Source of the DNA: an uncultured Mailhella sp.
GTDB lineage: Bacteria; Desulfobacterota; Desulfovibrionia; Desulfovibrionales; Desulfovibrionaceae
Length of the DNA stretch: 43,772 nt
Assembly (NCBI GenBank): GCA_944322695.1
Contig: CALUPQ010000004.1
Coordinates: 1-43,772 of the forward strand
Direction: 5' to 3'
In this document: piece by piece, positions 1 through 39,853 of the stretch
Layout of the letters: every line of letters begins with the position of its first letter
Position numbering within the stretch: the stretch's first letter is position 1
Notes under the pieces: generated by a model
What the model saw: only the letters and a program-made list of their open reading frames with translations
Told to the model about the DNA's origin: nothing
The model's database searches: none
Position numbers and translations under genes: made by a program

Positions 1-90
1 GCCTATGGGCGCAGTTGCCAGACCGCACCTCTTTTTTAGCAAATCAAAAGGAGTCTTTATCACTTACGCATAACTATAAGTTTTCGGGAA

Positions 91-118
91 CCCCCAGCCT
101 AGCTGGGGGGGTTCTTTT
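91..118 (+). terminator. Rho-independent terminator of an upstream plus-strand gene
   Basis: An 8-bp perfect stem (91-98 CCCCCAGC with 102-109 GCTGGGGG, 3-base loop) is followed by GGTTCTTTT. It would stop plus-strand transcription entering from outside the window. No coding frame is recognisable in bases 1-90, so the gene it serves cannot be named. Confidence 0.7.
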
Positions 119-39032: not shown

Positions 39033-39051
39033 GCCTTTTTCCGTTCATGAG

Positions 39052-39089
39052 GCGCGCCGGTCTGCTCCCTCCAGGCCGGCGCGCTTTTC
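39052..39089 (+). terminator. Rho-independent terminator of the aminotransferase gene
   Basis: GCGCGCCGG (39052-39060) and CCGGCGCGC (39076-39084) form a 9-bp perfect stem with a 15-base loop, followed by TTTTCT. It starts 20 bases after the stop codon. Confidence 0.8.
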
Positions 39090-39137
39090 TCCGGAAAAAG
39101 AAAGGAATGTTCCTTCCGCTCCCGCTTCAACCTTCAC

Positions 39138-39167
39138 CGTGTGCTTGAAAACCACGTAAAAAACAAG
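39138..39167 (+). promoter_or_regulatory. Candidate preQ1-I riboswitch
   Basis: CGTG (39138-39141) pairs with CACG (39153-39156). The loop carries CTTG (39144-39147), complementary to CAAG (39164-39167) in an A-rich tail TAAAAAA, giving the H-type pseudoknot layout of preQ1-I aptamers. A cytosine (39152) precedes the closing strand where the ligand-contacting C would be. The tail ends 2 bases before the start codon of a queuosine-precursor transporter gene, fitting translational control. Only 4 bp support the first stem, one fewer than usual. Confidence 0.5.
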
Positions 39168-39169
39168 TC

Positions 39170-39853
39170 ATGAAAAGCAGTTCCGTTCCTCTTTCCTTCA
39201 TGCTGCTCGGCATCGCGTTCTGCGCATGCCTCATCGCCTCCAACCTTCTGGAAACCAAAATCATCCAGCTCGGTCCCGTTACCATCACCGCGGGCTTTCT
39301 GGTCTTTCCCATCTCCTACATCATCAACGACTGCATCGCCGAAGTGTGGGGTTTCCGCAGGGCACGCCTGCTCATCTGGCTGGGCTTTGCCGTGAACTTC
39401 ACCATGCTGGCGCTCTTTCAGCTGGCCGTCGCCCTGCCCTCCGCTCCGTTCTGGGAAGGCGAAGCCGCGTTCCGCTTCGTTTTCGGCCTTGCTCCCCGCA
39501 TCGCCGCGGCCAGCCTCATGGCCTTTCTGCTGGGCTCCTTTCTCAACGCCTATGTCATGAGTAGAATGAAAATCGCAAGCCGGGGCAGAAACTTCTCCGC
39601 CAGAGCCATACTTTCCACGCTCGCGGGAGAAAGCGCGGATTCGCTCATCTTCTTTCCCCTCGCTTTCGGAGGCCTTGTCCCCGTGCAGGAGCTCCTCAAA
39701 CTGATGGCCATCCAGATTGTGGCCAAAACGGCGTACGAAATCGTCGTGCTGCCCGTGACCATCCGGGTGGTGAACGCCCTGAAGATTCATGAGGGATGCG
39801 ATGCCTACGATACCGGCATTTCCTACAACATCATGAAAATACGGGATATCTGA
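39170..39853 (+). CDS. Queuosine precursor transporter, YhhQ/VUT family
   Basis: Inner-membrane importer for queuosine precursors (preQ0/preQ1, or queuine in some bacteria). The 227-residue product has about six hydrophobic helices and the family pattern ASNLLETKIIQLG, FPISYIINDCIAEVWGFRRA and a C-terminal AIQIVAKTAYEIVVLPVT. The start codon has no clear Shine-Dalgarno; the preceding ACAAG belongs to the candidate preQ1-I riboswitch tail. The gene is monocistronic after a terminator. Confidence 0.9.
   Translation: MKSSSVPLSFMLLGIAFCACLIASNLLETKIIQLGPVTITAGFLVFPISYIINDCIAEVWGFRRARLLIWLGFAVNFTMLALFQLAVALPSAPFWEGEAAFRFVFGLAPRIAAASLMAFLLGSFLNAYVMSRMKIASRGRNFSARAILSTLAGESADSLIFFPLAFGGLVPVQELLKLMAIQIVAKTAYEIVVLPVTIRVVNALKIHEGCDAYDTGISYNIMKIRDI

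Follow-up and report, generated by a model that had tools for sequence, protein, structure and literature searches.

The yhhQ leader compared with described preQ1-I riboswitches

To our knowledge, preQ1-I is the smallest riboswitch class. In its type II, represented by T. tengcongensis and B. subtilis, P1 has 5 bp, against 4 bp in the Mailhella element described here, and the tail of the T. tengcongensis (Tte) RNA is AAAACAAGG. In class I structures as described in PMC11625349, preQ1 pairs with the C before the P1 3' strand and has its edge read by a U of L1 and an A of L3; the floor of the pocket is a G-C pair. The same source gives an AC preceding the P1 3' strand as the type II rule and places type II also in phyla including Bacteroidota. 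Type III, known from E. coli yhhQ and from gamma-proteobacterial hosts (PMC10622847, PMC11625349), is marked by a UU motif behind P1, a loop rich in pyrimidines and, within P2, an AAGG/GGA Shine-Dalgarno sequence (PMC11625349), and the E. coli yhhQ switch is described as burying a Shine-Dalgarno sequence (PMC10622847).

The locus studied here lies in a 43,772-nt stretch of DNA from an uncultured Mailhella sp., the whole of which we call the window. Read directly, positions 39138-39167 of its plus strand are CGTG-TG-CTTG-AAAAC-CACG-TAAAAAA-CAAG, i.e., 30 nt in the layout of an H-type pseudoknot. The last G of the P1 5' strand (CGUG, 39138-39141) is the partner of C39153 and the expected floor of the preQ1 pocket. 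In L1 (UG, 39142-39143), U39142 would be the counterpart of U6, which reads preQ1 in class I structures (PMC11625349), and this position is a T in 30/30 aligned elements. The P2 5' strand (CUUG, 39144-39147), assigned from the sequence and from alternative pairings in Bacteroidales leaders, is followed by L2 (AAAAC, 39148-39152), whose C39152 lies immediately before the P1 3' strand with an A ahead of it (the AC motif) and is the expected specificity base, predicted to pair with preQ1. Next come the P1 3' strand (CACG, 39153-39156), assigned from the sequence and from two-sided P1 changes, and the A-rich L3 (UAAAAAA, 39157-39163), which is conserved in the element alignments and whose last A would correspond to A30 (Can), the reader of the minor-groove edge of preQ1 (PMC11625349). 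The P2 3' strand (CAAG, 39164-39167), our proposed expression platform, ends 2 nt ahead of the start codon; TC follows, and then the ATG of yhhQ at 39170. By sequence inspection, no Shine-Dalgarno sequence of the AAGG/AGGA type is present from P1 to the ATG. A15 and C16 (alignment numbering) of the AC motif are invariant in both element alignments, one of which comprises 24 distinct elements, and in these 24 the C before the P1 3' strand, the U opening L1, the G-C pocket floor and the A ending L3 are all invariant. All four class I pocket features are present, and by the features tested the element belongs to preQ1 class I.

The gene behind the element (39170-39853, plus strand) encodes a 227-aa queuosine precursor transporter of the COG1738/QPTR family, with matches to NCBIfam TIGR00697 (queuosine precursor transporter; E 4.2e-32, over cut-off) and to Pfam Vut_1 (E 9.2e-50). 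A first-pass annotation of this DNA had described a preQ1-I-like pseudoknot with a 4-bp first stem, ending 2 bases before the ATG of a YhhQ-family transporter and lacking a Shine-Dalgarno sequence apart from its tail, and we find each of these points as it was described. No close gene on the same strand is evident downstream among the window ORFs, and yhhQ looks monocistronic. A strong G+C hairpin followed by TTTT lies 3' of an aminotransferase gene at 39048-39090 and is likely, judging by its sequence, a terminator isolating the yhhQ unit. No sigma-70 promoter turned up in a scan of the DNA preceding the window element.

With type III (PMC10622847, PMC11625349) the element shares an H-type pseudoknot right before yhhQ, a canonically paired P2, the AC before the P1 3' strand and, as we infer for Mailhella, a translational OFF switch. 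Unlike type III, it has UG as L1, CUUG/CAAG as P2 and no Shine-Dalgarno sequence, and its hosts are Mailhella and Bacteroidales instead of gamma-proteobacteria. Assignment to type III was rejected because there is no UU after P1 and no AAGG, the P2 3' strand being CAAG. Type II is alike in the AC before the P1 3' strand, the single pocket and the A-rich tail, and unlike in that the P2 of the element is fully paired, that it has no Shine-Dalgarno sequence and that it goes unscored by RF00522. The AC rule favours type II. The published type II covariation model takes in 521 sequences, and some of these leaders may already figure in published lists of that type; the novelty sits in the tandem arrangement described below and in the platform without a Shine-Dalgarno sequence, and the window element alone is closer to another member of preQ1-I.

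A generic preQ1-I descriptor, which asked for a paired P2 and an A-rich L3, a G-C floor, a U following P1 and a C ahead of the P1 3' strand, fitted the 43.8 kb window twice on both strands taken together, with a 4-bp P2 only at 39138-39167, and first-order Markov versions of the window gave 0.2 fits with a 4-bp P2 on average. Such geometry is uncommon but does not settle the matter by itself; conservation does. The P1 hairpin alone is not unusually stable (z -0.36), as expected of a ligand-dependent pseudoknot, and near the ATG the single copy folds no more stably than shuffles do. A pairing of CGUG with CAUG at the start codon, taken from the fold, was dropped owing to its mismatch with other start contexts. 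The Rfam PreQ1 model RF00522 (gathering cut-off 39 bits) had no match in the window or the whole genome, although B. subtilis, among 14 control genomes, was detected; it had none on the 61 bases around the element even at E<=10, and it matched 0/31 Bacteroidales loci (18 + 13 scanned). With no match at gathering or at E<=10, we rejected placing the element in RF00522. The first-pass annotation had suggested a divergent or minimal variant, and the latter term is right. Matches near the site to ar7, PtaRNA1, gyrA and other Rfam families were set aside as well, as they fall far under the gathering scores and mostly cover the upstream hairpin. At the contig edge (window 1-113, minus strand), the Salmonella sRNA family STnc490 exceeds its gathering score, with no match in E. 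coli; this is possibly a terminator look-alike.

Conservation in Mailhella and pairing changes in Bacteroidales

A protein search of 99 relatives with the window YhhQ retrieved 25 yhhQ copies from 19 Mailhella genomes, at 58-100% identity to the query. The sequence CCGTGTGCTTGNNNACCACGTNAAAAACAAG lies 0-3 nt ahead of the ATG in 24 of the 25, including copies whose proteins are just 58-66% identical to the query. The one exception (L007, on G013:C35) is a stand-alone yhhQ with a decayed element; the other yhhQ of that genome carries a tandem pair. The element is absent from the more distant COG1738 genes of the same genomes (L037, L038), and exact matches in the genus occur exclusively beside yhhQ or at contig edges. 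Scans of the family (288 genomes) and the order (348 genomes) recovered it in Mailhella (19/19) and Candidatus Avidesulfovibrio (2/3 genomes) only, so that it is found in 21/348 Desulfovibrionales genomes, always adjoining yhhQ or at a contig edge. P1 and P2 are invariant throughout Mailhella, and the pairing evidence therefore comes from Bacteroidales. A comparison across Desulfovibrionales for compensatory changes, as proposed in the first-pass annotation, reaches only the two genera that have the element, and the two-sided changes were supplied by Bacteroidales instead. That annotation had also named the joint lack of a covariance match and of conservation in close relatives as speaking against its reading. 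The first is what RF00522 returned; the second is contradicted by stems and tail that are kept in both Mailhella and Bacteroidales.

Scanning a wide collection with P1 left free yielded at least 120 matching stretches, mostly in Bacteroidales, and 80 sites were examined. Fifty-five of these precede YhhQ (52) or QueC (3), with four P1 pairs in 52, three in 2 and the last cut by the locus end. Among the remaining 25 sites, just 4 have four P1 pairs: L120 and L150, which are yhhQ-like ORF starts cut by the locus end, L156, which precedes a nucleoside hydrolase gene, and L101, without such a gene. Covariation in P1 was assessed on the 24 distinct elements, which were hand-picked and held in a fixed register, with P2 fixed by the search pattern and hence uninformative there. 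Pairs 2-20 (CG and AU) and 4-18 (UA and AU) change on both sides, and 99.5% of P1 cells are paired, a value equalled by 0/500 shuffles.

For P2, we searched 198 Bacteroidales genomes with the YhhQ protein alone (80 had a match) and then fitted the pseudoknot descriptor to leaders of 34 close orthologues (48-100% identity to the Bacteroidales query), of L317 as the one intermediate case (42%) and of seven distant paralogues. The descriptor fits 33/34 close orthologues, the intermediate (1/1) and 0/7 of the distant COG1738 paralogues, and 0/840 shuffled leaders fit with at least three P2 pairs; because the fit picks registers that pair, the P2 counts lean towards pairing, and full P1 pairing is required by the descriptor itself. 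L278 is the non-fit, and P2 is down to three pairs in L266, L271 and L317. The P2 variants are CTTG/CAAG, CTAG/CTAG, TTCT with GGAA or GGAG, TTCC/GGAA and TTGG/TCAA, part of which variety depends on the register chosen by the pairing-maximising fit. L254, L255 and L260, which share a TTCTAG loop motif and a CAGGA tail motif, form a sub-group that resembles what we take to be the classic preQ1-I consensus. Spacing from element to start codon in Bacteroidales is mostly 2-6 nt. In a phylum-wide Bacteroidota sample, mostly of distant COG1738 proteins, 3/30 leaders (L219-L221) carry the element and 27, judged by eye, do not; a viral contig scan and a plasmid search found no element.

The genes fronted by the element serve queuosine synthesis or uptake: yhhQ, the queC-queF operon and, in Bacteroidales, queC, which lies immediately downstream of it in L249, L311, L312 and L314. 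In L134, L165, L282, L285 and L301, also from Bacteroidales, queC begins 81-169 nt beyond the same aptamer, and with such a gap the expression platform must differ from the start-codon-adjacent type. Directly behind the element of L156 (2861-3982) is a lipoprotein-like inosine-uridine nucleoside hydrolase (Pfam PF01156, IU_nuc_hydro, E 1.6e-59), perhaps a queuosine salvage enzyme. Of the 19 Mailhella genomes, 17 retain tgt.

The window element shares its ancestry with the Bacteroidales leaders. Against the three nearest Bacteroidota proteins of the phylum-wide sample, its YhhQ shows 62-67% identity, and against that of Avidesulfovibrio 73%, but the proteins of other genera of its own family reach at most 42%. 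In a tree of 67 YhhQ proteins, all those of Mailhella and Avidesulfovibrio nest within a Bacteroidales clade, apart from other Desulfovibrionales, with support of 100/96, 99/99, 100/99 and 96/98 at the nesting forks. The simplest account is a transfer of the gene together with its leader, in a direction suggested by the nesting, and yhhQ and its leader were probably acquired together from Bacteroidales, which would account for only two genera of Desulfovibrionales carrying the element. The case looks like a riboswitch moving between phyla along with its gene.

Proposed control of yhhQ and rival readings

We read 39138-39167 as a compact class I preQ1 riboswitch aptamer that would close over the start region to repress yhhQ translation, and put the probability of this at about 0.88. 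The sequence-level support lies in stems and tail strongly conserved before yhhQ, together with the two-sided pair changes, and it favours the riboswitch proposed at first pass. Ligand, pocket geometry, OFF direction and translational level are modelled on solved relatives. When preQ1 is plentiful, it would pair with C39152 between P1 and P2; the A-rich L3 would then dock into the P1 minor groove, and P2 (CUUG/CAAG) would close 2 nt ahead of the AUG, so that the 30S subunit could not load and no transporter would be made. Under preQ1 shortage, the A-rich tail would be single-stranded and translation would start without a Shine-Dalgarno sequence. Bacteroidia ribosomes are described as making no use of Shine-Dalgarno sequences (PMC6847099, PMC9976891), and in Flavobacterium johnsoniae adenines at -3, -6, -12 and -13 are reported to favour initiation (PMC6847099). 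P2 and the A-rich L3 fill most of the initiation stretch, and closure of the pseudoknot should therefore block initiation. Counting against this reading are a P1 of only 4 bp, the blank RF00522 result and the one decayed Mailhella copy (L007).

The same switch might instead be tuned to preQ0 or queuine, since YhhQ-type transporters take preQ0 as well as preQ1 (PMC10622847) and some leaders front queC, whose product is preQ0. We regard this as unlikely, given that every class I residue reading preQ1 is kept and that the type III switch of E. coli yhhQ has a strong preference for preQ1 over preQ0 (PMC10622847). More improbable still are two readings that dispense with a ligand-binding RNA. P1 can be read as an inverted repeat (CGTG-N11-CACG) and thus as a DNA operator for a transcription factor, and operators may also occur in tandem; yet P1 and P2 interleave and both stay complementary while their letters change, the spacing to the start codon is tight in Mailhella and Bacteroidales alike (0-3 nt and mostly 2-6 nt, respectively), and exact matches in the genus keep to the yhhQ neighbourhood or to contig edges. 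It is equally hard to see the element as a mere A-rich translation enhancer, favoured in Bacteroidales mRNAs without a Shine-Dalgarno sequence and carried over by gene transfer: the initiation-promoting adenines of F. johnsoniae (PMC6847099) would suit it, but it leaves unexplained the conservation and co-variation of P1 and P2, the upkeep in Mailhella and the restriction to queuosine genes.

Tandem copies in Mailhella yhhQ-queC leaders

The second yhhQ of the same genome (G000:C155:7310-7990) has a leader with two complete elements, 33 nt apart. Such a tandem pair is found in five Mailhella yhhQ leaders, those of this genome, G013, G014, G016 and G018 (L031-L034, L036), and a sixth lies at a contig edge in G004 (L079), while the corresponding leaders of G007, G008 and G010 have a single element. 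Since G018 is assembled as a single contig, its tandem argues against an artefact of assembly. A queC match over cut-off is present in 10/19 Mailhella genomes and lies directly behind yhhQ in 9, with tandem leaders in five of the nine; in this genome, queF comes after queC. The heptamer AAGGAGG is conserved about 50-60 nt upstream of the first aptamer in L031, L032, L034, L035, L036 and L079, and is perhaps a leader peptide or a decoy ribosome site; a promoter-like CATAGT occurs farther upstream in most leaders whose sequence reaches there.

Table 3 of a 2022 review (PMC9481103) lists preQ1-I among the classes not found in tandem, and the Mailhella leaders contradict that table. They resemble the tandem glycine, TPP and c-di-GMP riboswitches treated in that review in that a single leader carries two aptamers for the same ligand, and differ in that preQ1-I had no tandem there, whereas Mailhella has two complete aptamers 33 nt apart. 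A literature search for tandem preQ1 riboswitches, also in connection with yhhQ, found no counter-example; McCown 2014 fell outside its scope. In a survey of 393 Bacteroidales genomes, about 90 places were listed, and there was no tandem by fit in 27 loci (L337-L363), the others being judged by eye only.

The tandem RNA has a strong nested alternative fold (-17.9 to -19.1 kcal/mol; z between -2.2 and -4.0). At its centre, the P2 3' strand of the first copy pairs with the P2 5' strand of the second in a 7-bp junction hairpin (-7 kcal/mol), which takes in the conserved CG linker and leaves neither pseudoknot able to form. Some such folding arises in any repeat of a self-complementary unit, and we offer a function for the junction hairpin as a hypothesis. 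It is conceivable, if somewhat doubtful, that the tandem yhhQ-queC aptamers form a coupled switch, in which the junction hairpin would force the joint binding of two preQ1 and so give a steep, cooperative OFF response on the biosynthesis operon, with the single copy of the window giving a shallower response on a stand-alone importer. If this were true, preQ1 riboswitches would have their first tandem example, and one that acts with no Shine-Dalgarno sequence at the start codon. The tandem leaders also offer a one-ligand system in which to test if aptamer doubling sharpens the response.

Translational riboswitches have been predicted in organisms with mRNAs lacking Shine-Dalgarno sequences (PMC11625349), and the Mailhella and Bacteroidales leaders are direct, short and testable candidates for them. 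As Rfam does not see this 30-nt version, annotations of gut Bacteroidales and Mailhella probably understate queuosine regulation.
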